A DNA stretch of 64,000 bases from an uncultured Acidimicrobiales bacterium (GTDB taxonomy: Bacteria > Actinomycetota > Acidimicrobiia > Acidimicrobiales > SZUA-35), in assembly GCA_937997485.1 (NCBI GenBank), contig CALKTH010000031.1:1-64000 (forward strand), in the 5' to 3' direction. The notes under the pieces are model-generated. The model did not search any database, was not told where the DNA came from, and was given only the letters and a program-made list of their open reading frames with translations. How positions within the stretch are numbered: position 1 is the stretch's first letter; every line of letters begins with the position of its first letter. Made by a program: the position numbers and the translations under genes. This document shows, piece by piece, positions 41,279 to 56,817 of the stretch.

Positions 41279-42799
41279 TCAGGTGATGCGCGAGCGCCAG
41301 GCGGCGGAGGCGAGAGCGAGACCTGCGGCGAGGAGGGTGAGTCCGGCCAGCAAGAGCGGGAGCGGGTTGCTGCCGGTGTTGGGAAGCGAGCCATCATCGA
41401 CGGCCGGCGGACGAGCCTCCGAGGTTGGGGCCGCGGTCGTCGCGACCCCTGTCGTCGGGGTCGTTGGTGCTGCCGTGGTTGACGGTGCCGTCGTTGACGG
41501 TGTTGATGTCTCTGCCGTCGTCGGGGCGGCGCTCGTGCTGGTTGTGCTTGGAGCGGTTGTGGTGGTCGTAGGTGCTGGCTGCACGGGGAGTGAGAACGAG
41601 GTCCCGGGAGCGAGCGTGGTTTGGTCGCTGGCGACGGTGGGAGCGTTGGCGAACGGTGACCCGACGACGGGCAGGTCGATGGTGAGCGTGTAGCCCACGT
41701 TCACCGGCGGGTCGGTCGCATCGAGAGCACCAACCGTCCACTCGATCGCCACGACGGACGCCGGATCGGCGGGGCAGGGGCCGAAGCTAGCGCCGTCGCC
41801 GCTGCACTGGATGGGGAAGCCACTGTTGTTGATGGCGGTGAGCGTCGTGCCGGTGGGAATGGTGTCGACGACGACCCCTCCTGTCGCCATCGCTGTGCCC
41901 GCGTTCGACAGTGTGAGCGTCGCCGTTGCCGTGTTGATGTCGCTGCCGAGGTCGAGGCTCCCTGGCGAGATCGCAGACGTGAGTGAGAGCTCGGGCCGGT
42001 CGGGCTCGAAGTCCCACGTGGTGGGCTCGGCACCGTTGAAGCCGAGGGTGATGAGGTCGGCGGCTCCCTCGTAGGAGCCGGCCCAGCCGGAGCCGAGGCC
42101 AACCTCGACACCAAACACCTGTGTATTCGGGCCGTACCCCCACTCGGTCAGATCGCGATCGAACACGAAGCACTCGATCGGGCCGCCGCAGCCGCCGATG
42201 CCGCTGAACGAGCCGTCGATGAACTGTGGGATCTGCCAGAAGTTGTCGCCGTTGAGGTCCTCGGCCGTCCAGACATCAGTTGGCACCGGACCACCGCTCG
42301 TCGGGTAGCCGTTGTAGATGCCTTCCCAGATCGCGAGTGTGCTCGTCCCATTGGTGCCGACGTCAGGATCCCAGAGCCAGAGTCGCAGGGCGGGCGTCAG
42401 GTGGGCGGGCGCAGTAGACGATGACGCTCGAAGCCAATCGAAGTGGATGGTGTCGAGTTCTGAGAGCAGGCCGAAACCACCGGCGGTGGTCGAGAAGCCG
42501 GCTCCGGCAGCGAAGACGGTGTCCGGCGAGAAGATCTGGGCGTCGGTCTTGGGTGAGTTCGCCGCCGGGGCGGGGAGGCGCTGATCGAGCGAACCGTCGC
42601 CACCGAGGCGATCGTCCCGCACATCGCTGACCACGCTGACGCCGCCATCTCGGGCGTTCGCTTCGTGCCACTCGCCTGGGGCGGGACCCCAGTCGGTCGG
42701 CCGGATGATCAGCGTGGCTGCACTTGCGGCCAGTCCTGAGAGCGTGAGGGCAGAGGCGAGAACCAACAGCGATGCGATGGCGAGGAGCAGGCGGCGCAT
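41279..42799 (-). CDS. LPxTG-anchored surface protein with DUF11-like repeat
   Basis: About 506 residues from ATG 42799. A signal peptide (residues 1-28) is followed by a large domain I do not recognise (about 30-230) and a DUF11-type beta-sandwich ('TLSNAGTAMATGGVVVDTIP'). Next come a Thr/Ala/Ser/Pro-rich stalk and a cell-wall sorting signal: LPNTG, a hydrophobic segment and a basic tail (RSRIT). It should be linked to peptidoglycan by a class of sortase not encoded in this window. Possibly a structural or adhesive surface protein. Confidence 0.85.
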   Translation of the reverse strand: MRRLLLAIASLLVLASALTLSGLAASAATLIIRPTDWGPAPGEWHEANARDGGVSVVSDVRDDRLGGDGSLDQRLPAPAANSPKTDAQIFSPDTVFAAGAGFSTTAGGFGLLSELDTIHFDWLRASSSTAPAHLTPALRLWLWDPDVGTNGTSTLAIWEGIYNGYPTSGGPVPTDVWTAEDLNGDNFWQIPQFIDGSFSGIGGCGGPIECFVFDRDLTEWGYGPNTQVFGVEVGLGSGWAGSYEGAADLITLGFNGAEPTTWDFEPDRPELSLTSAISPGSLDLGSDINTATATLTLSNAGTAMATGGVVVDTIPTGTTLTAINNSGFPIQCSGDGASFGPCPADPASVVAIEWTVGALDATDPPVNVGYTLTIDLPVVGSPFANAPTVASDQTTLAPGTSFSLPVQPAPTTTTTAPSTTSTSAAPTTAETSTPSTTAPSTTAAPTTPTTGVATTAAPTSEARPPAVDDGSLPNTGSNPLPLLLAGLTLLAAGLALASAAWRSRIT

Positions 42800-42825
42800 G
42801 TCCTCGAACCTATCGATTCCGAGTG

Positions 42826-43596
42826 TCAGGCGACAGCGGGCGTCGCGACGGCGACCCGGCGAGTGAGGACCACATCCACCCCGGCCTGTCGCATCGAACG
42901 GCGGAACCACCACAGGCCTGCCACGAGCGTGATGCTCGTCGTGACCGGCCCGAGTGCTGCCTTGTAGAGAACAAATGACGTGATCGATTGTGTCAGCAGC
43001 AGGTACAGCGTGACGGCGCCGTTAAGGAGCGAGGTCGCAGCCCACAAGAGCGAGAGCTTCGGGAAGAAGGCCTTGAACGCCGGTTCATTTGCGGTCTGCT
43101 CGTCGAAGGGGCAGAAGTCGTGCACGAGGCGTTCGGCGAGCGGCAGCCCCATCGGAACCGAGATCAGGAAGGCCGTGCCGATGAGCGTGGTGCTGATCGT
43201 TGGCTGGATGAAGTACGCGAGGACGCTGCCGGTGAGGACCGCGACGATCGTCTTGGCCGTGTTGCCAACGATGGAGAGGATGACGAGGCCAGCGATGCGG
43301 TGGCCCTTGGCCCGCTGGTATGCGACCACGCCGAGCGACCATGCGAGACCGGCGAGCACCGCCGGAGTGAGGCCGGCGATCGAGTACCCAACGAGGAAGA
43401 GAACGAGCGGAACGATCTTCCCGATCACGATGTTCAGCCACGAGTGGCGAGCGATGGCTCCAAGGCCCGGGATGGTGACGCGGCGTTCCACACCTGTTCT
43501 GTCGTCGCGGACGGCGAGGAAGTTTCGTTCAATCTTGGGAATTGACACGTTTGACCTAGGTCGTGCGACAGAAGGCCGTCGGACGTGTGACGACAA
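42826..43596 (-). CDS. VC0807-like integral membrane protein
   Basis: 256 residues with about six hydrophobic helices ('IVPLVLFLVGYSIAGLTPAVLAGLAW' region onward) and the polar loop 'HDFCPFDEQTANEP' typical of the VC0807 family. No transport or catalytic motif is known for this family. It is on the same strand as, and 26 bases upstream of, the LPxTG protein gene, so the two may be cotranscribed. Confidence 0.75.
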   Translation of the reverse strand: MSSHVRRPSVARPRSNVSIPKIERNFLAVRDDRTGVERRVTIPGLGAIARHSWLNIVIGKIVPLVLFLVGYSIAGLTPAVLAGLAWSLGVVAYQRAKGHRIAGLVILSIVGNTAKTIVAVLTGSVLAYFIQPTISTTLIGTAFLISVPMGLPLAERLVHDFCPFDEQTANEPAFKAFFPKLSLLWAATSLLNGAVTLYLLLTQSITSFVLYKAALGPVTTSITLVAGLWWFRRSMRQAGVDVVLTRRVAVATPAVA

Positions 43597-43714: not shown

Positions 43715-45085
43715 CTATTCGAGTTCGCGGATGATGAGTGCGATCTCGTCGGAGGTGGTGCGGGGGTTGACGAAGCAGAAGCGGTAGACGGGCTCGCCGT
43801 CGTGCCGGCTGGGAACGACGAAGGCGGTCTGCTCATGCATCATCTTCTCGGTCCGAGCCTGGTACTGGGCGGCGTCCCAACCGATGCGTTCGAACACCAC
43901 GATGCTCAGTCCCGGCTCCCACACCATACGCAGGTGCGGCGCTGCCTCGATCTGACGGACCGCTTCGTGAGCGAGATCGATGGTGGATTGCACGGCGGCG
44001 CCGTACGCGTCCGTGCCGTAGGTAGCGAGGGAGAACCAGAAGGGGAGGCCCCGCACACGACGCGTCAGATGGATGGCGAAGTCCGACGGGTTCCAGTCAC
44101 CGTAGGCCTCGAGGAACTCGAGGTATCCCGCATGTTGCGCATGGGCGGCCCGACCCTGATCGGGATTCCGCCAGATCAGGGCGCAGCAATCGAACGGAGC
44201 GAAGAGCCACTTGTGGGGATCGATGATGAGCGAGTCGGCGTGCTCGATGCCATCGAACTGCGGACGCACCTCGGGAGCGGCGAGACCGGCGCCGCCGTAG
44301 GCGGCATCCACGTGGAACCATACGTCTCGCTCACGACAGACCTCGCCAACCGAGGCCAGATCGTCGATGACTCCCAGGTTGGTTGAGCCGGCCGTGGCGA
44401 CGACGCCGCAAACCCGGTCGCCGTGCTCCTCGAGCGCGGCCTGCACGCCATCGCCCGTCAGGCGTCGGCGCGCATCAGTATCGATGGCAATCACGTCGAC
44501 ACCCATGACTTCGGCTGCCGATGGGATCGATGAGTGCGCCGTCTTCGACACAATGAACGCCCACTTGTCGGGCTCGGGGCGACCCTCGTCGAGGCATCGT
44601 TGCACGGCGGCCTTGCGGGCGCCGACCATGGCGGAGAGATTGCCGATCGTCCCACCGGGTACGAAGACGCCGCCAGCTTCCGCTGGCAGCCCAGCCAGGT
44701 CGCTCAGCCAGCGAAGCGCTTCGTTCTCGGCATACACCGCACCGGAACCTTCGAGCCACGAGCCGCCGTAGGTGGACATCGCACCTACCACCAGGTCAAA
44801 CAGCACGGCCGCTTCGGTCGGAGCGGCAGGAACGAACGAGAGATACCGGGTGAAGTCGACGGAGAGGCATGCGGGCGCGAGGACGTGCTCGAACAGATCC
44901 AGCGCCTTGTCGCCGCCGATTCCCTCAGCCGTGATCGTCGGCCCGCAATCTGCCGCCAGCTCCTCGGCCGTCCGGGCCGTGTCGAGCGGGATGGGATCGA
45001 GACGCGTGCGGGCTCGGGCGTAGGCCACGATCTTGTCGGCAAGAGCGTCGGTCTCGGGGTTGTAGTCGTGCATCGAGCGAGGCAT
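43715..45085 (-). CDS. PLP-dependent group II amino-acid decarboxylase
   Basis: 456 residues with the fold-type I signature: 'GGTIGNLSAM', 'HVDAAYGG' (pyridine-N Asp) and 'DPHKWLFAPFDCC', where the Lys forms the Schiff base. Relatives decarboxylate aromatic amino acids, glutamate or 2,4-diaminobutyrate. It lies 56 bases downstream of the PotD-like binding-protein gene and the GlnX-like gene on the same strand, so it may be part of the same transcript. An amine or amino-acid signal for the sensor pair is one possible link (inference). Confidence 0.9.
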   Translation of the reverse strand: MPRSMHDYNPETDALADKIVAYARARTRLDPIPLDTARTAEELAADCGPTITAEGIGGDKALDLFEHVLAPACLSVDFTRYLSFVPAAPTEAAVLFDLVVGAMSTYGGSWLEGSGAVYAENEALRWLSDLAGLPAEAGGVFVPGGTIGNLSAMVGARKAAVQRCLDEGRPEPDKWAFIVSKTAHSSIPSAAEVMGVDVIAIDTDARRRLTGDGVQAALEEHGDRVCGVVATAGSTNLGVIDDLASVGEVCRERDVWFHVDAAYGGAGLAAPEVRPQFDGIEHADSLIIDPHKWLFAPFDCCALIWRNPDQGRAAHAQHAGYLEFLEAYGDWNPSDFAIHLTRRVRGLPFWFSLATYGTDAYGAAVQSTIDLAHEAVRQIEAAPHLRMVWEPGLSIVVFERIGWDAAQYQARTEKMMHEQTAFVVPSRHDGEPVYRFCFVNPRTTSDEIALIIRELE

Positions 45086-45141: not shown

Positions 45142-46275
45142 TCAGAAGACGAGAGCGTTGAACTCGTCATCAAGACGAGCCTCGTCGGCAGCTGTGAGGC
45201 CGCCCCAGGTGAAGAGCCGATTGCGTGTGTCGTTGTCGGGGAAGAGCAGGGGGTTGTCAGCGAGCTCGGGCAGCCCATCAGCACGCAGCTGATCGGCGGT
45301 GCCGAGCACCGGTGAAACGTAGCCCACCCACGCGGTGATGGCAGCAGCGTTGACCGGGTCGTACACGTAGTCCATGAACTGGCCGATGGCCCCGAGGTTC
45401 GCCGCGCCCTTCGGGATCACCATCGTGTCGAACCACTGCACGGCACCCTCGTCGGGAATGACGAATTGCACGTCGGGTCGCGGTGGAGAGTCCTCCTTCA
45501 AGCCCTGCTGGAGAAGGAACGTGTCGCCGCTCCAGGCCATGGCCAGCCAGAGCTCGCCGCTGTCGATCCTGCTGGTGAAATCGCCCGCGGTGAAGGCGCC
45601 GAACTGGCCAGCCTCGACGGCGTCGCGGATACGAGCCAGACCGGCATCGGCAGTGGCCACCGTCGGTCGGGACGGGTCGTCGCCGTTGAGCAACATGCCC
45701 AGGCCAACGGCCTCACGCATCTCGATGATGCAGCCCACGCGACCGCGGAACGCCGGGTCGAACAGATCGGCGATCGAGGTGATCGCGCGGCCCGTGAGCG
45801 CCTCGTCGTAAGCGATGCCCGTGATGCCTGACTGCCAGGGCATTTGGAGTCGGCAGCCTCGGTCCCACGCGTTCGTGAGAAAGAGCGGGTCGATGTTGGC
45901 ATGGTTTGGGATGACCTCGATCGGCAGCGGCTCGACGAGCCCGTCGGCGATCAGCTGGGCAGCGAGCCAGTTGGACGGCACCACGACGTCGTATGGCACG
46001 ATCTCGCTGGAGAACAGCGCCTGCCCGACGCTGTTGTCTTCGTAGCTCTCGTCGTAGTCGACGTCGATGCCTCGATCCCGGCGCAGGCGCGTGAGCGTTC
46101 CCTCGAGACCGCCGTCGTCAGGATCGATGTAGTCGCTCCAGTTCAGCATGCGGAACGACGAGCCATCGCCCAACGCCACGTCCCGGTTCGGCACACCGCC
46201 AGCGCAGGCGGAGAGTCCGAGAGCGCTGAGGGCCAGGAGAGTTTCCCGACGTGACCACAAGCGGCGCCCGGTCAT
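45142..46275 (-). CDS. PotD-like extracellular solute-binding lipoprotein (GlnH position)
   Basis: About 377 residues from ATG 46275. A twin-arginine-like head 'GRRLWSRRETLL' and lipobox LSAC are followed by a mature protein starting 'FRMLNWSDYIDP', characteristic of spermidine/putrescine-binding proteins. No permease or ATPase gene lies nearby. It overlaps the stop of the GlnX-like gene by 4 bases. In mycobacteria and corynebacteria the lipoprotein GlnH and membrane protein GlnX signal to kinase PknG. Here the same layout has a PotD-type binding protein, so the ligand could be a polyamine or other compound, not aspartate/glutamate. Confidence 0.87.
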   Translation of the reverse strand: MTGRRLWSRRETLLALSALGLSACAGGVPNRDVALGDGSSFRMLNWSDYIDPDDGGLEGTLTRLRRDRGIDVDYDESYEDNSVGQALFSSEIVPYDVVVPSNWLAAQLIADGLVEPLPIEVIPNHANIDPLFLTNAWDRGCRLQMPWQSGITGIAYDEALTGRAITSIADLFDPAFRGRVGCIIEMREAVGLGMLLNGDDPSRPTVATADAGLARIRDAVEAGQFGAFTAGDFTSRIDSGELWLAMAWSGDTFLLQQGLKEDSPPRPDVQFVIPDEGAVQWFDTMVIPKGAANLGAIGQFMDYVYDPVNAAAITAWVGYVSPVLGTADQLRADGLPELADNPLLFPDNDTRNRLFTWGGLTAADEARLDDEFNALVF

Positions 46276-47681
46276 CGGTACTCCCGTAAGCGCCGACTCA
46301 CTCCGGCAAACACGCACAGGGCGCTCAGCAGACTGAGGAGAACAGTGGAGGCAGGAAGCCAGCGAACGGCGGCGGTGGCTCCCGCTGCCCCGTCGAGGAA
46401 CTGCGTGCGGTTGTCGGAAAGCACGCTCTCAATGCTCGTATTGAAACCGTTGAAGGCGGAGAGGCCCTCGCCCTGAAGACGGTCGAGCGCTGCAGGCGAA
46501 CCGTCCGATGCGATGGCTTCGACCTCGGCTCGGTAACGATCCCAACGAATGCGCAACGTGTCGACGGCGGCCCGTTCCCTCGTCGAGTCGGCGAGCAGCT
46601 CGGCTTTCTGGATGCCCTGCTCGACTTGGGCGAAGGCTGCTCCGGTGTCGATCGTCTCTTGCCGCAACGTGGCGAAGGCCAGATCCGTTTGGAGGTCGTA
46701 GGCCGCGGCCTGAATGTCGGCGGTTGAGGTGATCGAGTCGAAGCCACCGGCCTCCGCCTCCTCCAACGCAGTCTGGCTGCGGGACAGCGAAGAGGTATGC
46801 ACGACCATGGCGGCGAGCAGCAGAAGGCTTGCGAGGATCAGCCATGGGTGCAGGAGGCGGTTGGTTCGAGACGTGAGAAGTACTTGGAAGACCAGCAGCG
46901 CGACGAGCGTGACGGCGCCCACAAGCAAGGTGAGGATCGTGCCGCCGCCGACTCGCGCCTGCTGCTCGTCGAGTTCGGCCTGGCCGCTCGCCGTGACGGT
47001 GTCGACAGCAGTTGCGACATCCGTACGAGCGATGGCGAACGCCGAGGCCAGTCCGTCGGTCGCCACCTGGCTGGCAGCGCCCGGTGTGGTCTCGGCGTCC
47101 TCGGCCGCCTCGCCTTCGGCTGTCTCGTCTTCGTCCGTGGCTGGGTCCGTCGCGTCGAGGCCACTGATGGCTCGGCTCGCCTCGATCTCGCCCGAATAGC
47201 GAACGAGCCCGGCGTTGAGGTCTTGCAGGGCGGCATGGGCGTCTGGGGCGTCGCCGACGAGGCTCGACACCCGCTCGGATTGGCGAGCCGCTCTCGAGAT
47301 GGCATCGAGATAGAGATTGCGCTGAGCCCGGCTTTCGGTGAGTACCGCCCCCGTGGCCGAGGCATTGGCCTCCGCCACGCTGGCGAAGACTCCCTGCACT
47401 TCGACGAGGGCGGGAGCGGTGTTGTTCTCGATCGTTGCAGTGGCGTCCTGCCCCTGGAGAGCCGACTGCACCCCCACAACGGTGAAGATCAGAAGCCCGA
47501 GGATGATCCCGCCGCCAATGGAACGCAACCAGCCGGGTGTGCTCGACACTCGAAGCAGTCGGGTGAGGACGGCAAGCCCAGACGCCTGGCCGCTTCCCTC
47601 TGCTCCTCGAGGCGCAGGCGACGCACCAACCGGTGGGCTCGGGGGAGAAGACCCTGGCGGGTTGGGTGCAACGACGGCCAT
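46272..47681 (-). CDS. GlnX-like membrane sensor protein
   Basis: 469 residues with four hydrophobic segments (near residues 55-72, 245-265, 278-296 and 445-465). They enclose two long helical extracytoplasmic regions with recurring Ala/Glu/Asp patterns like chemoreceptor sensing bundles. No kinase, HAMP or enzyme domain is present. The architecture and its coupling to a solute-binding lipoprotein match GlnX of the PknG pathway. It probably senses the loaded binding protein and signals inward to the PknG-type kinase encoded from 51347. Assignment is by architecture and context, since sequence similarity in this family is low. Confidence 0.7.
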   Translation of the reverse strand: MAVVAPNPPGSSPPSPPVGASPAPRGAEGSGQASGLAVLTRLLRVSSTPGWLRSIGGGIILGLLIFTVVGVQSALQGQDATATIENNTAPALVEVQGVFASVAEANASATGAVLTESRAQRNLYLDAISRAARQSERVSSLVGDAPDAHAALQDLNAGLVRYSGEIEASRAISGLDATDPATDEDETAEGEAAEDAETTPGAASQVATDGLASAFAIARTDVATAVDTVTASGQAELDEQQARVGGGTILTLLVGAVTLVALLVFQVLLTSRTNRLLHPWLILASLLLLAAMVVHTSSLSRSQTALEEAEAGGFDSITSTADIQAAAYDLQTDLAFATLRQETIDTGAAFAQVEQGIQKAELLADSTRERAAVDTLRIRWDRYRAEVEAIASDGSPAALDRLQGEGLSAFNGFNTSIESVLSDNRTQFLDGAAGATAAVRWLPASTVLLSLLSALCVFAGVSRRLREYR

Positions 47682-47904
47682 GCGGGTACGACGTTAGTTG
47701 CTCCGGGCTATGAGGAGGACGTGGTCCTGCTCAATCGATGGGCTGCGCCTTGGTGCAGTCCAGATGACCTGCGAGCCAAAGAACTTCTGCCGAGAATCTT
47801 CTTGTGTCCCTGACCAGGAGCGACGCACGTTCGAGGCCTCAATTCGACCACTGATGGGCCCGGACTGGGCGTTCGCTGTCACACCCCATCGTCATGATGG
47901 AGGC
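47682..47904. other. Divergent region between the GlnX-like and DUF222 genes
   Basis: It holds the DUF222 control element at its right end. The rest has no clear promoter, repeat or reading frame that I would support; an open frame from 47698 merges with the DUF222 gene but lacks conservation with copy 1. Confidence 0.4.
47877..47900 (+). promoter_or_regulatory. 24-bp element shared by both DUF222 genes, copy 2
   Basis: Identical to the block upstream of copy 1 (10652-10675, minus strand) and 4 bases from the ATG here. Dyad CCATC-GTCAT-GATGG; CATGAT lies 6 bases before the ATG as a possible leaderless -10 box. GGAGG (47899-47903) is too close to the ATG to be a normal ribosome-binding site. 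Confidence 0.7.
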
Positions 47905-49404
47905 ATGTTCTCACTCGCAGCTTTCGAGACGGAGATGTCGGCGCTCGCCGGTCAAACTGTGTCCGCTGCAAAGGCTGAGGCCCTGCTGCTGGACGCGCGA
48001 GCGGCGCGGCTGGCACTGAACGATCACGAGGCGCACATCGTGGCGCTGATCGATGAGCATGTCGAGGCGGGCAATGGCCGCACGCCAGAGGAGATCCTCA
48101 TTGGTGCCGGACTGTCCAGCTTCGAAGCACGAGCCTCTACCGCCCGTGCTCGCACGCTGAACGATCTTGCCGAGACACTTCCGGTCCATCCTCTCGACAC
48201 GACGGGTCCGATTGATGAAGAAGTGACGGACCACGACGACTCTGATCACTCTGATCACGATGGCACGGGTGGCGGGTCGCGTGAGGGTGGAACGGACGAA
48301 GACAGCTCCTGGTCAAAGAGCGCGTCTTCAGGAGCCGACGGTGACGATCGGGCCCGTCGTGGTTTTCGGGCCGAGGTGAACCCGGAGAACGTCGACGCGA
48401 TCCGGCGGGCCGAGAAGTCCCTGAAGACCGAGGCTGAGCGGGCGGCCTTCGCCGTTCGGAAGCCCGAAATCGCCACGCTTGCGCTCGAGCTCGCTCCGCC
48501 GCAGTTCGCTCGACGGTTGAAGCAGATCGTGTCCAGCATCATCGCCGAGTGCGGCACAACGCTGAAAGAGCGGCAACGCAGAGCCTCGAAGCTCTCGTGG
48601 TGGACCAAGGCCGATGGCATGGTGGGCTTCGCTGGAGAGCTCGATCCCGAGCGTGGTCACAAGTTCATCAACGCCGTTGATCGCGAGATGAAGACCGAAG
48701 CACGGCAGGCCAAGAGTGCCGAGGGCCTGCTTCTCCCGCTCGATGCAAACCTGGCCGCGTCGGCACTGGATCGGTTGTGCGAACGGGCGAACAACCCCGA
48801 GGCTCGGGTCGCTCGGCCGATGGTCGGGCTCATCGTCGACCTGGAAACAGTCCTGACGGGCGTTCACGAGGATTCGGTCTCGTTCAGCACCCAAGGGCCC
48901 GGGGAGTGGGTCGATGACGCCACACGTCGCAGGCTGTTGTGCGACTGCGATCTGCAACGGATCATCACCGATGAGGACGGCGAACCGATCAACGTTGGGC
49001 GGAGGTATCGGACGGCCACGCCAGCCCAGCGCCTCGCGCTTCGGGCCGTGTACAGCTCATGTGCGTTCCCGGGCTGCGATCAATGCTTCGACTGGTGCCA
49101 GGTCCATCACGTCACGTTCTGGGAACACGACGGCACGACCGACCTCGAGAACCTGGTGCCACTCTGCAGCCGACACCACCATTTGGTGCATGAGGGCGGG
49201 TGGCGCCTCGCGATTGACGAGCTTCGGGTGGTGCGAGTGTGGCTTCCGAATGGAAGATTGCACGCCGCCGCACAACCTGACGGCCCCATTCGCCGGTCAG
49301 CTCGCCAAGGGCCATCAGCGACGGTCGGAGGCCGTGGGCCAACCCTGGTCGGTGTGTTGGACCGTCCCTCGTTGTTCAACGAACGAGAACCCAGCAACAA
49401 CTGA
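47905..49404 (+). CDS. DUF222 / HNH endonuclease-domain protein (13E12 family), copy 2
   Basis: About 499 residues from ATG 47905. Same order as copy 1: DUF222, acidic Ser/Gly-rich linker (about residues 108-150), DUF222 and HNH ('CAFPGC', 'HHVTFW', 'NLVPLCSRHHHLVHEGGW'). The C-terminal third is highly similar to copy 1, the linker is not. It stands between the two arms of the PknG-type signalling island, which suggests insertion or at least that the locus tolerates such elements. Confidence 0.9.
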   Translation: MFSLAAFETEMSALAGQTVSAAKAEALLLDARAARLALNDHEAHIVALIDEHVEAGNGRTPEEILIGAGLSSFEARASTARARTLNDLAETLPVHPLDTTGPIDEEVTDHDDSDHSDHDGTGGGSREGGTDEDSSWSKSASSGADGDDRARRGFRAEVNPENVDAIRRAEKSLKTEAERAAFAVRKPEIATLALELAPPQFARRLKQIVSSIIAECGTTLKERQRRASKLSWWTKADGMVGFAGELDPERGHKFINAVDREMKTEARQAKSAEGLLLPLDANLAASALDRLCERANNPEARVARPMVGLIVDLETVLTGVHEDSVSFSTQGPGEWVDDATRRRLLCDCDLQRIITDEDGEPINVGRRYRTATPAQRLALRAVYSSCAFPGCDQCFDWCQVHHVTFWEHDGTTDLENLVPLCSRHHHLVHEGGWRLAIDELRVVRVWLPNGRLHAAAQPDGPIRRSARQGPSATVGGRGPTLVGVLDRPSLFNEREPSNN

Positions 49405-49422
49405 AGCATCGGACCGGCCGCC

Positions 49423-50016
49423 TCAGCGCGGTCGATCTGTCGCGTCTGGTCTCAGTGAGCCTTCGCGACGGGTGTGAGTGCGATCACGGCGATACCGAGC
49501 GAGATCGACCCCCATCTGTGACCGGCGAAATCCTCGACCGGCCAGCAGGCGCTGGAAGTCCGGCCTGTGGTCGAAATGCTGGAGTTGCCGGTGGTAGTAG
49601 TTCACGTACTCGAGCGCGGCCAGCACAGCCGCAACGGTTGCCATCACCCGATCAGCCAGTCCGGCCGAAAGATCCGTGGTCACCCACCCAGCGGTGACCG
49701 CGATGAGTGCCGCCACGGTGAGAACGAGAAGTGGGAACTGCCACCGATCGAGATGTGGGAGGACGACTCGCATGGTGTCGGGGCGACCGGTGATCCGCAA
49801 GAGCTTTGCCCGCCAGTACGAACCGCCGGCGGCGAGAAGGCCGCATGTCGGGATCAGAGCGAAGAGCGTGAGCCACCCTGGTCGAGCCCCGAAGAAGAAC
49901 CCGCTTCCGATGATCGCGACGGGAACCAGACCAACGTTCAACAGCTCGAGCTTCCAGTACGAGTCGAGCCGCTGCACCAGCGCTTCCCGGTCGGTCGAAT
50001 TCGGCGGCAGCTTCAT
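49423..50016 (-). CDS. Small integral membrane protein
   Basis: About 197 residues from ATG 50016. Four hydrophobic segments lie between residues about 25 and 140, with a conserved-looking loop 'YVNYYHRQLQHFDHRPDFQRLL' and a basic C-terminus. It resembles uncharacterised actinobacterial membrane proteins; no function can be assigned. It is divergent from the kinase operon with about 68 bp between starts. Confidence 0.7.
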   Translation of the reverse strand: MKLPPNSTDREALVQRLDSYWKLELLNVGLVPVAIIGSGFFFGARPGWLTLFALIPTCGLLAAGGSYWRAKLLRITGRPDTMRVVLPHLDRWQFPLLVLTVAALIAVTAGWVTTDLSAGLADRVMATVAAVLAALEYVNYYHRQLQHFDHRPDFQRLLAGRGFRRSQMGVDLARYRRDRTHTRREGSLRPDATDRPR

Positions 50017-50084
50017 GGCGAGGCGAGCATAGAAACCGCTGCACGTCGATGTCGGACTCGGCGGATCTGGAGGGAGAACCGACG

Positions 50085-51347
50085 GTGCCCCGGCAGTCTC
50101 GTAGAGTCTCGACCGTGGTCTACCCACCTCCCCCCGGCCCTCCACGTCCTGGCGCTCAGCCGCGCGCACCCCGGAACCGATCGACTGCCGCGTCCCCCGT
50201 GGATGGACAACGTGATCCGCTCGTCGAACGGCGGCGGCTCCGCAGCGTCCTCGAAGCACTCCAGGCCGAGCTGGTCGAGATGGAAACGTCGCCGTCGTTC
50301 CTGATGCTCACCTCCGGCTCGCTCGGAATGGAAACGGAGCGAGCGGTCGGTTCGACGATGGCCGAGGTGAATGTCCTCTGGCCGCTCCTGCACGGGGCTC
50401 GGTCTGAGCTCACCCTCCTTGACGAACTCGGCGACGGTCGCACTGTCGGTCGAGAGATTCAGGAGCGTCTCACCCAACCCATGGTGACGGTCGCGGCCGG
50501 GCCGAACACTCCGGCCCGCCAGATGCTGCTCGGTGATGCCCTTGATCGTGCTCGCGCGTTGCTCGTGCCGATCGAAGAAGCTGTGGCCCGCGTCGACACC
50601 ATGTGGCTGGAGTTGCTGCCCCGCCTCGACGGGTCGAAGCGGACCCTCGCTCGCCTTCGAGACGAGGCAGCAAGGCTGGGCGTAACCGAACCTCTCATTG
50701 GGCGAGCGCAGGCGCTGGCCACCGACCTCGAGGAACGCCTTGTGTCGGATCCGTTCGGGATCCACCCGAACGATCCCGCCAACCTCGATGAGCAAGTGGC
50801 CCTCGCTGCCGAGCAGATCGCCTCGTTGCGGTCCGGTCACGACGGGCTCGAGACAGACATGGCCTCCACGGAGGCGCTCTTGGCTGAGCTTCGGGGATTG
50901 CGGGCCGCTGCTGATGCCGCTCGCCTGGCATCGTTGGAGAAGATCAAGGAACCGGCTGGCCTGGTGCGGATCCCTGCCCCATCCGTCATCGATGGCACGC
51001 GCGGTCTGGCCGACAGACTCGATGACTTGTTCGATGACGCCGTGCCGTGGATGCATCGGCGAACCATGCTGGACCAAGTCCGCAGCTCGGCCGATCGGCT
51101 TCACCGACAGCTGGAGCGAGCCGAGGCTGCGAATCGAGGGCCGATCGACAAGCGAAACGAACTGCGTGGGCGGCTCACGGCCTTTCAGGCCAAGATGGCG
51201 GCCGTGGGTCAAGGAGAAAACCAAGAGTTGACCGAATTGGCCGATCTGGCTCGAGCCGAGCTGTACACCTCGCCCGTCGACCTCGACATTGCCGAAGCGC
51301 TCGTCGACGATCTCGCCCAAGGCATTCGTAGAGAGGCCACGGCCTGA
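50085..51347 (+). CDS. Coiled-coil protein heading the PknG-type operon
   Basis: About 420 residues from GTG 50085, which has GGAGGGAG eight bases upstream. ATG 50049 (longer) and GTG 50115 (with TAGAGT seven bases upstream, leaderless style) are alternatives. A Pro-rich head ('YPPPPGPPRP') precedes a mostly helical, Glu/Arg/Leu-rich body with several heptad-like stretches. No signal peptide, membrane segment or catalytic motif is seen. Its stop overlaps the kinase start (TGATG), so expression is coupled. Probably a scaffold or regulator of the kinase; function unknown. Confidence 0.75.
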   Translation: MPRQSRRVSTVVYPPPPGPPRPGAQPRAPRNRSTAASPVDGQRDPLVERRRLRSVLEALQAELVEMETSPSFLMLTSGSLGMETERAVGSTMAEVNVLWPLLHGARSELTLLDELGDGRTVGREIQERLTQPMVTVAAGPNTPARQMLLGDALDRARALLVPIEEAVARVDTMWLELLPRLDGSKRTLARLRDEAARLGVTEPLIGRAQALATDLEERLVSDPFGIHPNDPANLDEQVALAAEQIASLRSGHDGLETDMASTEALLAELRGLRAAADAARLASLEKIKEPAGLVRIPAPSVIDGTRGLADRLDDLFDDAVPWMHRRTMLDQVRSSADRLHRQLERAEAANRGPIDKRNELRGRLTAFQAKMAAVGQGENQELTELADLARAELYTSPVDLDIAEALVDDLAQGIRREATA

Positions 51348-53869
51348 TGACTGCCTGTACCGAACTCGACTGCGGAGGGACCGTTGCCGCCGACGGCTAT
51401 TGCGACACCTGTGGCATGAAGCCATCGGCCTCCCGGTCAGTTGCTTCCGGCCAAGCCGCTCCCTCAGCGAGCCCGGCCTCAGCCGTCCAGGCTGTGCCCG
51501 TCGCCGCTGGCGCTGCCTGCTCGAGCGGTTGTGGTGGCGCCATTGCGACCGACGGCTATTGCGACACGTGTGGTTTGGCTGCGGTCCCAGCCGCAGCTCC
51601 CGCTTCCGTGACTCCGAGCGTCACTGGCTCGAGCGCCCCAACGGCGAACTCGGCTGCTGCTCTGCCGTCGTTCACAGGCCCGGGAGTAGAGACCTCGACT
51701 GGCTGGGCACCCACGATCGCCGCTCCCCAGGCCCCGGCCACGGCAGCAAGTGTCGCCTCCCGCACCGGTACGGCAGCGGGCCAGAGTCGGCGAACAGCAC
51801 GTTCTGGTCGCACCGCCACGAACCGCTCAGCGATTGGTGCTGGGCTCATCACGGTCGCGTCGACCCCTGTGGGCGACCCCGCTCAGGCGGTGATGTCAGA
51901 ATCCAAGATCCGGTCGGTTCTCGGCGAGGTCCCCGAAGACGAGCGAGTCTGTTCCAACTGCGGTCGACCCGTCGGCCGGGCCACCGATGACCGGCCGGGT
52001 CGGGTGAAGGGTTTCTGTGGCACGTGCCGCACCGCCTTCGACTTCGTAACGAACGAGCCGGCCCTCACCGCAGGCGAGATGGTGGCCGGTCAGTATCAGA
52101 TCCTCGGACCGCTCGCCCATGGTGGCATGGGTTGGATCTACCTCGGTCGGGACAAGGCAGTATCCGATCGTTGGGTCGTGCTCAAGGGCCTTCTGAACGA
52201 CGACGATCCCGATGCCGCGATCGCCGCTGTGGCTGAGCGTCAGTTCCTGGCGCAGATCGAGCATCCGAACATCGTCAACATCTACAACTTCGTGACGCAT
52301 CGCGGGGCTGGCTACATCGTCATGGAGATGGTCGGCGGCGAGTCTCTGAACAGCAAGCTGAAGGATCGACGCAAGGCCAACGGTGGCGTGTCTGATCCGC
52401 TTCCGCCGGCCGAAGCCATCGCCTATGTCCTGGGCATCCTGCCCGCCTTCGGCTACCTGCATTCCTTGGGGCTCGTCTACAACGATCTCAAGCCCGCCAA
52501 CATCATGGCGGTCGGCGATGACGTGAAGCTCATCGACGTCGGCGCGGTCATGAAGGCCGACGACGTCACCGCGGCGATCTTCGGCACGCAAGGGTTCCAG
52601 GCCCCTGAGGTGGCCAAGGACGGACCATCGGTTGCGTCCGACCTGTTCACCGTTGGCCGCACGCTTGCGGTGCTGATGATCCGGTTCGTCTTCCACGACG
52701 GCCCCTATCTCTATGCCGTGCCGCCGCCCCAGGAAGAGCCGCTGTTCGCTCAGTGGGAAGCGCTCTACCGATTCCTGCTTCGGGCCTGCGCCTTCCACCC
52801 AGACGATCGGTTCCTGTCGGCAGCCGACATGGCCGAGCAACTGACGGGCGTGTTGCGCGAGGTCGTCGCCGTGACCGAGGGATCACCTCGCTCGGCGCCC
52901 TCGGAGATGTTCGACGCTGACCAGCTCACCACCATGCTGGTCTCGGGCATCGACCAGTTCGATCCGTCCGAGCCGGACGCCCGAGTTCTCCCTCGGCCTC
53001 GGGTCGACCCGGAGGACCCGGCGGCCGGTTTCTTGGCCTCTCTGCCCGAACTCGATCCGAAGGTGACGCTCGAATTGATCTCGGCCGCCGCAGATGAGGG
53101 TCGAGTGGAGCGGAGTGTCGAGCTTCGGTTCCGCTCGGTTCGAGAGGTCATCGACGCCGGGGGCGATGGCGAACGCCTCCTGCAGGCGATGGCCTCGGAG
53201 TTTCCCTTCGACTGGCGCATCCCGTGGTACCGAGGTGTACTGCAGCTCCGAGACGGCAACCCGACTGCAGCGGCGGAGAACTTCAGCCGAGTGTGGACCG
53301 AACTCCCCGGCGAGATCGCGCCTCGCCTCGCAGCGGCGCTCGCCGCCGAGCTGGCGGGCGAGTTCTCTCGGGCAGCGCAGCTCTATGAAAATGTCGCCCG
53401 GGTCGATGCGAGCCACGTGTCGGCCGCCTTCGGGCTTGCTCGATGCCGACGAGCCATGAACGATCCGGATGGCGTGGTCGACGCCTTCGGCCTCGTGCCA
53501 CCCAGCTCGGCTGCTCACTACGACGCTCAGGTGGCTGCTGCCCGCGCTTTGGTCGGAGGTGGATCAGCTGGTGCTCCGACACTGGTGGATCTCACGGCAG
53601 CGGCGGAAACGATTGATCGCCTCCAGCTCGACGCCGAGGAGCGAACTCGGCTGAGTGCCGAGGTCTACGAGCGGGCCCTGGCCGGCCTTCAGGAAGGTCG
53701 CATTCAAGAGGGATCGGTGGTGCTCATCGATCGTCCGCTGACAGAGCGTTCGATTCGAGAAGGTTTGGAGCAGACGTATCGAGAGCAGGCGCGGATGAGC
53801 ACGGACGACGACGAGCGGGTTCGTCTCGTCGATGCGGCGAATCACGTGCGACCTCGGACGCTGTTCTGA
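51347..53869 (+). CDS. pknG: PknG-type serine/threonine protein kinase with extra zinc ribbons and TPR region
   Basis: 840 residues. The N-terminus has two Cys-rich ribbons ending 'DGYCDTCG' (near residues 16-23 and 68-75), an Ala/Ser/Thr linker, and a rubredoxin-like pair 'CSNCG...GFCGTC' (about 203-230). The kinase domain follows: 'GPLAHGGMGWIYLG' loop, VAIK-type Lys K280, 'YNDLKPANIM' with D380 and K382 (HRD replaced by YND, as in PknG), D397 in 'IDVGA', and 'GTQGFQAPEV'. The C-terminal part is TPR-like helical repeats. In known bacteria PknG phosphorylates an FHA protein (GarA/OdhI) to control 2-oxoglutarate metabolism. The two extra ribbons are beyond the usual single rubredoxin. Confidence 0.93.
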   Translation: MTACTELDCGGTVAADGYCDTCGMKPSASRSVASGQAAPSASPASAVQAVPVAAGAACSSGCGGAIATDGYCDTCGLAAVPAAAPASVTPSVTGSSAPTANSAAALPSFTGPGVETSTGWAPTIAAPQAPATAASVASRTGTAAGQSRRTARSGRTATNRSAIGAGLITVASTPVGDPAQAVMSESKIRSVLGEVPEDERVCSNCGRPVGRATDDRPGRVKGFCGTCRTAFDFVTNEPALTAGEMVAGQYQILGPLAHGGMGWIYLGRDKAVSDRWVVLKGLLNDDDPDAAIAAVAERQFLAQIEHPNIVNIYNFVTHRGAGYIVMEMVGGESLNSKLKDRRKANGGVSDPLPPAEAIAYVLGILPAFGYLHSLGLVYNDLKPANIMAVGDDVKLIDVGAVMKADDVTAAIFGTQGFQAPEVAKDGPSVASDLFTVGRTLAVLMIRFVFHDGPYLYAVPPPQEEPLFAQWEALYRFLLRACAFHPDDRFLSAADMAEQLTGVLREVVAVTEGSPRSAPSEMFDADQLTTMLVSGIDQFDPSEPDARVLPRPRVDPEDPAAGFLASLPELDPKVTLELISAAADEGRVERSVELRFRSVREVIDAGGDGERLLQAMASEFPFDWRIPWYRGVLQLRDGNPTAAAENFSRVWTELPGEIAPRLAAALAAELAGEFSRAAQLYENVARVDASHVSAAFGLARCRRAMNDPDGVVDAFGLVPPSSAAHYDAQVAAARALVGGGSAGAPTLVDLTAAAETIDRLQLDAEERTRLSAEVYERALAGLQEGRIQEGSVVLIDRPLTERSIREGLEQTYREQARMSTDDDERVRLVDAANHVRPRTLF

Positions 53870-54915
53870 TGACGATGTGTCCCGCCTGCGGCGAGTCGGC
53901 ACCGGAAGACGCATCGTGGTGTGAGGCCTGCGGAAGCGACCTCGCCGCGGCTCCTGCGGCTGGAGCGATTCCCGATGTGGCCGCCAAGCCCTGCGTGGCC
54001 TGCGCTGCGATCGAGATCTCCACCGACGGCTACTGCATGGAATGCGGACGCAAACAGCCAGGCGAGCGAGACCACTTCTCGGTCGAGTCGGGGCCGCTGG
54101 TCGGCCGGTCCGACGTCGGCCGACGGCACCACGAGAACGAAGATGCTGTGGCCATCGGTGCCGAACGCAACGTGCTGGCTCTGGTGGTGTGTGACGGTGT
54201 CTCGAGCACGCCGGGCTCGGCCGCGGCCAGCGCTGCGGCGGCCGACGCTGCAGTAGCAATCCTGATCGAGTCGGCTGCCGATGACAACGCCGGTCTGAAC
54301 GCCGAGGAACGGAACGCAAGCGGAACCGAACGCATGCTGGCGGCGGCAGCGGCGGCCCAAGCCGAGGCGACTGCAGTGGCGAGCGAGGCCACCCCATCGA
54401 AGGATGGCCCGCCCTCATCAACCTTCGTTGCCGTGCTGGCCGAGGCGGCAACGGGAACAACCAACGGCTCGACTGCGGACCGCGCCATTGGCTTGGCCAC
54501 CGAGTTGACGGTTGGCTGGATCGGAGATTCTCGGGCCTACTGGATCGGCGAGACCGACGCCGCCCTGCTCACCGTCGACCACGAGGTGAACGGCAGCCTC
54601 ACTCGCTGGATCGGGGCCGACGCCCATGACCCGACACCCGAGATCGCCCACGTCTCTGCCGATGGCCCGGGCACGCTTGTCGTCTGCTCCGATGGACTCT
54701 GGCGCTATGCGGAAACACCGGAAGCCATGAGTGACCTCGTCCGCCACCTGCGGACCGAACACGGGAACCACGACGTGGCGCTCAGCGTTCTGGCTGAGGC
54801 GATGGTGGATTTCGCCAACGCCAGTGGCGGGCATGACAACATCTCGGTGGCACTCTGCTCGTTCCCCATCTCGACCACCGAACACACCGAAGGCAAGGAG
54901 CCATCCGCACAATGA
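53869..54915 (+). CDS. PP2C-type protein phosphatase with N-terminal zinc ribbons
   Basis: 348 residues; start overlaps the kinase stop by 1 base. Residues 4-60 form two Cys pairs-of-pairs, the second ending 'DGYCMECGRK', closely resembling the ribbons of the kinase. The PP2C domain has 'VGRRHHENEDA', 'VCDGVSS', 'WIGDSRAYWI', 'CSDGLWRY' and 'GGHDNIS', which contain the metal-binding Asp residues. It should reverse phosphorylation by the neighbouring kinase. Cytosolic; no membrane segment. Confidence 0.93.
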   Translation: MTMCPACGESAPEDASWCEACGSDLAAAPAAGAIPDVAAKPCVACAAIEISTDGYCMECGRKQPGERDHFSVESGPLVGRSDVGRRHHENEDAVAIGAERNVLALVVCDGVSSTPGSAAASAAAADAAVAILIESAADDNAGLNAEERNASGTERMLAAAAAAQAEATAVASEATPSKDGPPSSTFVAVLAEAATGTTNGSTADRAIGLATELTVGWIGDSRAYWIGETDAALLTVDHEVNGSLTRWIGADAHDPTPEIAHVSADGPGTLVVCSDGLWRYAETPEAMSDLVRHLRTEHGNHDVALSVLAEAMVDFANASGGHDNISVALCSFPISTTEHTEGKEPSAQ

Positions 54916-56186
54916 GCGACTTCACCGCTGAGGTCTTCCAAAACGAATATCTCCCGGCTGGCTCGGACACCGTCGACGCGGTCGTCACCGTGCGAGCCGC
55001 CGATGACATCGGCACGAATGCGCAGCCGGATTCGGTTGAGGTCCTGGTGATCGACACGTCGGGATCGATGCTCGAAGAACGCGGCGCCAAGATGCATGCG
55101 GCTCGCATAGCAACGCAGGCGGCGATCGACGTGCTCCGAGACGGGGTGCATTTCGCCGTGATCGGCGGCGCCGGGTCGGCGTACATGATTTATCCCCGAG
55201 AGGGTCTTGCCGTCGCCGACGAACGAACGCGGCAGGAAGCCAAGAGTGCAGTGGCCCGGACTCACGCCACCGGCGGCACCGCCATCGGTTCATGGCTCGA
55301 AGCCACGGCCTACGTGGCTCGGCAGCGTCCCAACGCCATCGCCCACGCACTGTTGCTGACCGACGGCAAGAACCAGCACGAGTCCGATGCCCAGCTCAAC
55401 CGAGCCATCGAGAAGTGCTCGGGCATCTTCCAGTGCGACGCCCGAGGTTTGGGTGCGGACTGGAACATCGACGAGCTTCGGCGAGTCGCCTCCGGCTTGC
55501 TCGGCACGGTCGACATCATTCCCCGCCCCGAGGACATGGAGGCCGAGTTCACGGCGTTGACCCAGCAGGCGATGGGAAAGCAGGTGGGCTCGGTTGCCCT
55601 TCGCCTCTGGACACCCAAGGGCTCCCAGATCGAATTCATCAAGCAGGTCGCCCCGGCGCTGGAGGATCTGTCCGCCGATCCCACGCCAGTCAACGCACTG
55701 ACGAACGACTACGCCCTTGGATCATGGGCTGGCGGCGAAGAGCGTGACTATCACGTGAGAGTGCGCATCCCGACCGGTGCGGTGGGCGAGGAACGCCTGG
55801 CCGCCCGAGTGATGCTAGCCATCGATGGCGAGGCCGAACCGGCGGCGCTTGTCCGTGCGGTGTGGACGGATGACAACGCGCTGTCAACTCGCATCAACCG
55901 CGAAGTTGCCCACTACACCGGGCAGGCGGAACTGGCCGATGCCATCGCCGCTGGTTTGGCCGCACGCGATGCGGGGGACCAAGCCACGGCCACCGTCCGT
56001 TTGGGCCGGGCTGTGCAGATCGCGCACGAAGCCGGGAACAGCGACACAGTGAAGCTGCTGCGCAACGTGGTCGAGATCGATGATCCGGCCACTGGCACGG
56101 TGCGGATCAAGCGCAATGTCGACAAGACGGATGAAATGGCGCTCGACGTTCGATCCACACGCACTGTGCGTGTGAGCCGGGGCTGA
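54912..56186 (+). CDS. von Willebrand factor A domain protein
   Basis: 424 residues; overlaps the phosphatase gene by 4 bases. The VWA domain shows a full MIDAS: 'DTSGSM' (about residues 49-54), the Thr in 'TGGTAIG' and the Asp in 'LLTDGKNQ'. A beta-rich segment and a helical tail follow. No signal peptide, so it should act in the cytosol as a metal-dependent binding platform. Thr/Ser-rich stretches near the C-terminus ('RSTRTVRVSRG') could be kinase targets; this is a guess. Confidence 0.92.
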   Translation: MSDFTAEVFQNEYLPAGSDTVDAVVTVRAADDIGTNAQPDSVEVLVIDTSGSMLEERGAKMHAARIATQAAIDVLRDGVHFAVIGGAGSAYMIYPREGLAVADERTRQEAKSAVARTHATGGTAIGSWLEATAYVARQRPNAIAHALLLTDGKNQHESDAQLNRAIEKCSGIFQCDARGLGADWNIDELRRVASGLLGTVDIIPRPEDMEAEFTALTQQAMGKQVGSVALRLWTPKGSQIEFIKQVAPALEDLSADPTPVNALTNDYALGSWAGGEERDYHVRVRIPTGAVGEERLAARVMLAIDGEAEPAALVRAVWTDDNALSTRINREVAHYTGQAELADAIAAGLAARDAGDQATATVRLGRAVQIAHEAGNSDTVKLLRNVVEIDDPATGTVRIKRNVDKTDEMALDVRSTRTVRVSRG

Positions 56187-56187
56187 T

Positions 56188-56817
56188 ATGGCCGCCGACG
56201 TCTGCTCGAACTGCGCCACCGAGCACCATCCGGACGACGTGTTCTGCGAGAACTGTGGCTACGACTTCTTGACCGGTTCGTTGCCTGACGAACTGGCACC
56301 TCTCGTCGTTTCACCGACCTCATCCTCCACCCCAACCCCCGTCTCCGGATCCAGTTCCGCCGCCGGATCGAACGAGACGGGCGCCGACGCGGCAGGACCA
56401 GATCCTGCTGCCGGCACAGGGTTGTTCGTGACGATCTCGGTCGACCTCGACTATTTCGCCGCCGCCGTCGAGGCAGGGCAGCTCGACCCACCCGACCCGC
56501 TGCCCGCACCCAGCACGATCGAACTGCGGACCGATGAGGTGCACATTGGTCGCACGAGCGCCAGCCGGAACATCCATCCCGACCTCGATGTCGCCGCCCT
56601 CACCGCTGATCCAGCCGCCTCGAGTCGCCATGCCGTGATCCGAGTGTCGCCCGAAGGCGCCATCTCGCTGACCGACGTGGGCTCGACGAACGGCACCGTG
56701 ATCGGCTCGCCCTCCGGGACGGTGGTGACAGCACACACGCCGCACCCCATCGCACCCGGCCAGCCCATCTTCATCGGCGCCTGGACACGGCTGGAATTCC
56801 GGGCCAGCGCCGCGTGA
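56188..56817 (+). CDS. FHA-domain protein with N-terminal zinc ribbon
   Basis: 209 residues; follows the VWA gene by 1 base. The N-terminal ribbon 'CSNCA...FCENCG' (about 5-29) and a low-complexity linker precede an FHA domain with 'HIGRTSASR', 'SSRHAVI' and 'DVGSTNGT', the phosphothreonine-binding signature. It takes the place of GarA/OdhI, the FHA substrate of PknG in other actinobacteria. The threonine-containing ETTS/ETVT-type motif phosphorylated in GarA is not seen, so it may read phosphorylation by the kinase without being its switch. Confidence 0.9.
   Translation: MAADVCSNCATEHHPDDVFCENCGYDFLTGSLPDELAPLVVSPTSSSTPTPVSGSSSAAGSNETGADAAGPDPAAGTGLFVTISVDLDYFAAAVEAGQLDPPDPLPAPSTIELRTDEVHIGRTSASRNIHPDLDVAALTADPAASSRHAVIRVSPEGAISLTDVGSTNGTVIGSPSGTVVTAHTPHPIAPGQPIFIGAWTRLEFRASAA

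Follow-up and report, generated by a model that had tools for sequence, protein, structure and literature searches.

The window analyzed here, a 64,000-nucleotide stretch of DNA from an uncultured Acidimicrobiales bacterium, carries a signaling locus centered on a gene for the protein kinase PknG. Five intact core genes lie on the plus strand (50049–56817) and encode a soluble helical protein (50049–51347), PknG (51347–53869), a PP2C-type phosphatase (53869–54915), a VWA protein (54912–56186), and an FHA protein (56188–56817). The first two genes overlap by one base (TGATG), as do those of PknG and PP2C, the PP2C and VWA genes overlap by four bases, and the VWA and FHA genes are one base apart. 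A divergently oriented sensor cassette on the minus strand comprises genes for a GlnX-family signal-transducing membrane protein (46272–47681), a solute-binding lipoprotein of the PotD/PotF, or polyamine-binding, type (45142–46275), and a pyridoxal phosphate-dependent group II amino-acid decarboxylase (43715–45085). The binding-protein gene starts at 46275, not at the longest open reading frame (ORF) start of 46317, and shares a four-base overlap (ATGA) with the GlnX gene. The tight spacing of the core genes and the coupled membrane protein–lipoprotein pair had both been described in an original prediction made from this DNA, and its coordinates and junctions were confirmed. It missed the decarboxylase, which belongs to the unit, and two genes between cassette and core, one of the DUF222/HNH type and one for a protein with two transmembrane (TM) segments.

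The locus was compared with PknG neighborhoods from a Pfam search and with 43 named loci retrieved through the N-terminal zinc-ribbon motif of PknG. The block recurs in about 50 loci, and this conservation rules out a chance overlap of ORFs. The original prediction had proposed conservation in relatives as a test, and the genes are indeed kept together in Acidimicrobiia and other Actinomycetota. The order GlnX, binding protein, helical protein, PknG, PP2C, VWA, and FHA is found in other Acidimicrobiia, Kitasatospora and a family grouping with it (f29), Nocardioides, Nocardia jejuensis, and Catenulispora, while a partial locus of Pseudofrankia holds the last five genes of this long operon. Within Acidimicrobiia the distribution of PknG is patchy: of 395 genomes, 16 have a PknG_TPR match that exceeds the curated cut-off. 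Among the loci with a GlnH-type binding protein, 31 contain PP2C, VWA, and FHA genes, and the remainder lie on contigs ending early or belong to a mycobacterial-type family (f34), whose genomes carry GlnX-GlnH-PknG alone. Such a three-gene operon has been published for mycobacteria and corynebacteria (PMC6069109). Since the long-form N. jejuensis clusters with f34 in the PknG tree (support 98), loss in f34 appears the simpler reading, and the three-gene operon looks like a reduced form of the long one. The original prediction had presented the locus as a novel joining of two known ideas; beyond the mycobacterial group, the seven-gene layout is already the usual arrangement. The operon exists as described, is well conserved, and extends further than that prediction supposed. 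A literature search, with most subscription journals outside its reach, turned up no account of the long form. Its one relevant find, a domain survey from 2005 (PMC1262709), mentions the clustering of PknG with glnH but not the PP2C, VWA, and FHA neighbors. New in this study are the long form of the PknG operon, the replacement of the usual sensor by one that comes with a decarboxylase, and the zinc ribbons common to kinase, phosphatase, and FHA protein.

The window PknG consists of two N-terminal zinc ribbons followed by rubredoxin, kinase, and TPR domains (PF16919, PF00069, PF16918) and scores 442 bits against M. tuberculosis PknG (2pzi). Its catalytic residues K280, E297, D380, K382, N385, and D397 are intact and are kept in 61–62 of 62 PknG proteins. 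The PP2C-type phosphatase (PF00481/PF13672 and DZR) begins with a double zinc ribbon, the cysteines of which are retained in 51–54 of 54 homologs and the metal-binding aspartates in all 54. The FHA protein (PF00498, 34.8 bits) likewise has an N-terminal zinc ribbon, with four cysteines present in 51/51 proteins, and preserves the phosphothreonine-binding residues R122 and H148 (50/51 each) and N168 (51/51). N-terminal ribbons of the form C..C...DGYC..C, one to three per protein, were detected in each of the 57 aligned kinases that do not belong to f34, whereas the five from f34 lack them, a count biased among the named loci by the ribbon motif used to retrieve them; in the unbiased Pfam set together with the window, the ribbon is found in 18/18. 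No zinc ribbon was found in the VWA and helical proteins. The ribbons of the kinase, phosphatase, and FHA protein may act as a shared docking tag.

The VWA protein combines VWA and VWA_3_C domains, and its metal ion-dependent adhesion site (MIDAS) is intact, as it is in 52/52 homologs. It ends in an ST(K/R)T tail, in which S415 and T416 are each conserved in 51 of 52 proteins and T418 in all 52, with V or I three residues after T418 in 47. This pattern is consistent with a hypothetical phospho-switch read by the FHA protein. Two Streptomyces-like loci (L079:7975-11662 and L080:8523-12182) carry a second, distant PknG-like kinase beside a VWA gene, and the encoded VWA proteins contain STRT or STKT followed by a C-terminal zinc ribbon of their own; no PP2C or FHA gene was detected next to this kinase–VWA pair. 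The helical protein is conserved, with orthologs in the long operons, including that of Nocardioides, and has no Pfam or NCBIfam family. It lacks TM segments, and its AlphaFold model (pLDDT 89.7) gave no significant Foldseek match. The spectrin-like repeats of EzrA were considered as the closest fold (Z 11.3, poor root-mean-square deviation) and set aside, because this Z value is within the range for unrelated helical models and no function can be read from it.

TerY-P triads likewise bring a kinase, a PP2C phosphatase, and a VWA protein together, and the original prediction related the locus to them. The three common domain types and generic matches to defense kinases in PADLOC would fit a stress or defense module of this type. 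However, the kinase is a full PknG with a TPR domain, the VWA protein carries VWA_3_C and has no TerY match in NCBIfam or PADLOC (no dedicated TerY model was compared), and GlnX and a binding protein are constantly present. A TerY-P-type function is barely credible, and this part of the original prediction found no support in these searches.

The outside face of the system departs from the GlnH-like sensor implied by the original prediction. The window binding protein matches PF13416 (71.5 bits), its best PDB matches are polyamine binders, and no PF00497 match was found in it; PF00497 was detected in nine binding proteins of other islands, that is, in every tested island outside the window's clade. 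The PotD-type sensors are about 25% identical to PotF and PotD. The pocket residues W37, acid 39, Y40, acid 182, E185, W244, W276, D278, and Y314 (PotF numbering), the roles of which were taken from a previous study (PMC8666671), are kept in 17/17 of them, with position 182 as in PotD. The retained pocket argues for a cationic amine as the putative ligand, not for any particular one. GlnX is matched over its full length by the family model NF058618 (1.7e-46) and has TM segments at 57–75, 249–267, 276–294, and 439–457. Its AlphaFold model (pLDDT 88.6) shows two extracytoplasmic four-helix bundles, resembling the histidine-kinase sensor domain 3va9 with a TM-score of 0.83 of target. The model places little of GlnX inside the cell, so that an adaptor linking it to PknG could be accommodated.

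The decarboxylase is the third gene of the cassette (PF00282, 5.9e-61). Its best NCBIfam match is L-2,4-diaminobutyrate decarboxylase, with 173 bits of the 900 required, and its PDB neighbors include DOPA, aromatic, desferrioxamine-pathway, and diaminobutyrate decarboxylases. Several group II families thus score alike, so the family and PDB comparisons assign no substrate. GlnX, a PotD-type sensor, and a PF00282 decarboxylase occur together on one strand in 18/18 loci with enough sequence, namely the window, 15 other loci, and two loci in which the intact cassette lies away from the kinase core (L177, L178); L093/L096 and L101/L129 among the cassette loci are near-copies. The decarboxylase is present in 0/37 GlnH loci. 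In another locus (L108), the cassette is located downstream of FHA in the same direction. Two genomes (G489, G620) have kinases in the PotD clade and a GlnX-GlnH pair elsewhere in the genome, and no PotD-type sensor of the window kind was found in them, so that GlnX-GlnH has taken the place of the cassette; the decarboxylase is absent from G489, and G620 has just a 46% homolog.

Phylogenetic analysis of 54 GlnX proteins separated the PotD-type from the GlnH-type partners at 100/100, with the window GlnX in the PotD-type clade; the single entry without an assigned sensor on the PotD side comes from a truncated contig. The PknG tree agrees with this split except for L108, whose placement lacks firm support. 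GlnX has therefore diversified together with its sensor, and the exchange of cassettes suggests that different outside sensors are plugged into a common kinase core.

The same linkage bears on whether the binding protein and decarboxylase form an amine uptake or degradation unit that merely lies beside a kinase operon. ATP-binding cassette (ABC) transporters are the usual partners of PotD-type proteins, and a relative 39–42% identical to the sensor precedes a permease-like gene in two genomes (G451, G562) and is a plausible source of the sensor. However, no permease or ATPase gene adjoins the window binding protein, which is an orphan, since a real PotABCD-type polyamine transporter operon is found elsewhere in the same genome (G000:C93:8039-12063; L181:2039-6063). 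GlnX also accompanies the sensor in every case, even when cassette and kinase are encoded far apart in the genome, and co-diversifies with it. A mere uptake unit is thus very unlikely.

The original prediction further took the FHA protein as a reader that steers 2-oxoglutarate metabolism. This identification with GarA/OdhI was rejected. Both have an FHA domain with an intact phosphothreonine site and a link to PknG, but the island protein has an N-terminal zinc ribbon, lacks ETTS, and reaches 17 bits against the OdhI model NF041660, whose cut-off is 200. A separate GarA/OdhI homolog is encoded on another contig of the window genome, unlinked to the island; it has a zinc ribbon, and its sequence reads TEMLDPTLST where ETTS would be expected. 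GarA/OdhI homologs of Acidimicrobiia (L153; L144-L155) share the N-terminal zinc ribbon and the absence of the ETTS phosphorylation motif. A pathway that runs from an amino-acid sensor of the GlnH type via GlnX to PknG, with the island FHA acting like GarA/OdhI on 2-oxoglutarate metabolism, would agree with the genuine GlnX and PknG and with a GarA/OdhI homolog that may still be a PknG target. It conflicts with the PF13416 sensor, with the ribbon-bearing FHA, and with the unlinked and altered GarA homolog, and we regard it as decidedly improbable. PknG might alternatively control central metabolism through the unlinked GarA homolog, with the amine sensor changing the input only and the VWA, FHA, and helical proteins serving as an accessory scaffold. 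The presence of GarA/OdhI homologs in 25/25 PknG genomes searched and the standard domain layout of PknG speak for this, whereas the diverged phosphorylation motif of the acidimicrobial homologs speaks against it, as does the fact that PP2C, VWA, and FHA keep their active sites and their closely packed genes even across large distances. This alternative is unlikely.

We favor the view that the locus encodes a version of the GlnH-GlnX-PknG pathway that senses amines and has a phosphatase and an FHA/VWA output of its own, a reading to which we assign a probability of roughly 0.55. The single pathway of the original prediction survives here as a signaling unit with the GlnX/PknG axis, phosphatase, FHA, and VWA, and loses its GlnH-like sensor. 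GlnX-PknG signaling is experimentally established in other bacteria (PMC6069109, PMC9769921), and the mechanism beyond this step is what we infer. The PotD/PotF-type lipoprotein would bind a polyamine or related amine outside the cell, possibly the product of the cassette decarboxylase or a relative of that product. The loaded binding protein would engage GlnX, the two four-helix bundles of which may relay the change across the membrane. PknG would dock by its TPR domain, with the helical protein perhaps as intermediary, and phosphorylate its targets, and the dedicated PP2C would reverse this phosphorylation. Among the operon products, the ST(K/R)T-tailed VWA protein is the likeliest substrate, the FHA protein could read its phosphothreonine, and the zinc ribbons may hold kinase, phosphatase, and FHA protein together. 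Such a core would accept interchangeable inputs, either GlnX-GlnH for amino acids or GlnX-PotD-decarboxylase for amines. More broadly, PknG might be the fixed core of a modular receptor, in which zinc ribbons tie a five-protein core, the VWA tail serves as a phospho-switch, and amino-acid and amine cassettes are swapped, with the mycobacterial operon as a remnant; we offer this wider proposal tentatively, at a little short of even odds.

Several observations weigh against the amine-sensing pathway. The window GlnX scores 159 bits against NF058618, below the curated cut-off of 250. The pocket position S87 is W in 16/17 sensors, which sets the distal part of the pocket apart from that of PotF and PotD, and about 30% of the sensors have Q or N in place of D247. 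Given this variation, and because proteins of the PotD family are able to bind amines of other kinds, the ligand may be something other than a classical polyamine. The link between the decarboxylase and an outside ligand is indirect, because the enzyme is cytoplasmic and its substrate undecided. The roles proposed for the VWA and FHA proteins are drawn from sequence conservation.

The locus appears split in the window because the DUF222/HNH endonuclease-type gene (47698–49404, plus strand; PF02720 and PF01844) and the gene for the small 2-TM membrane protein (49423–50022, minus strand; identified by TM scan, no confident Pfam match) have been inserted between the genes of GlnX and the helical protein. 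The DUF222/HNH gene is missing from the related locus L089, and both genes are missing from most relatives; the gap between cassette and core is mostly <120 bp in related loci, and the two genes were ruled out as pathway members. DUF222 occurs in four copies in the genome. A weakly related HNH-type ORF lies on the other strand in the corresponding gap of another locus (L095:7244-8530), and the region may therefore attract insertions. Downstream of the decarboxylase is a gene for a VC0807-family membrane protein (42826–43596; NF041646, 84.6 bits over a cut-off of 65). The window also encodes a secreted repeat-rich protein (41279–42913) that ends in LPNTG and a membrane anchor, a sortase-type signal.

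To our knowledge, the PknG operon has been studied in its three-gene form only. The long operon supplies a dedicated phosphatase and candidate substrate and reader genes for PknG, and the exchange of sensor cassettes provides matched GlnX/binding-protein sets with which to study how GlnX recognizes its partner and passes the signal. PknG is needed for M. tuberculosis virulence (PMC6069109), and PstP is often the sole annotated Ser/Thr phosphatase elsewhere (PMC6554272).

Compared with the GlnH-GlnX-PknG system of Mycobacterium and Corynebacterium (PMC6069109, PMC9769921, PMC8546545), the locus shares the lipoprotein, GlnX, the rubredoxin-kinase-TPR architecture of PknG, and the translational coupling of the GlnX and binding-protein genes. 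It differs in the family of the binding protein, in the zinc ribbons of PknG, in the additional helical, PP2C, VWA, FHA, and decarboxylase genes, and in the divergent arrangement of cassette and core. The PotABCD and PotFGHI transporters have the binding-protein family and most pocket residues in common with the locus, in which the binding protein is paired with GlnX and not with permease and ATPase genes. The use of a PotD-like protein as a sensor, not a transporter component, is established for NspS-MbaA (PMC9993111). In that system of Vibrio and Sinorhizobium, a PotD-like protein without a transporter of its own likewise works with a membrane signaling partner; however, MbaA is a GGDEF-EAL enzyme acting on cyclic di-GMP, whereas the window pairs its sensor with GlnX and a separate Ser/Thr kinase.

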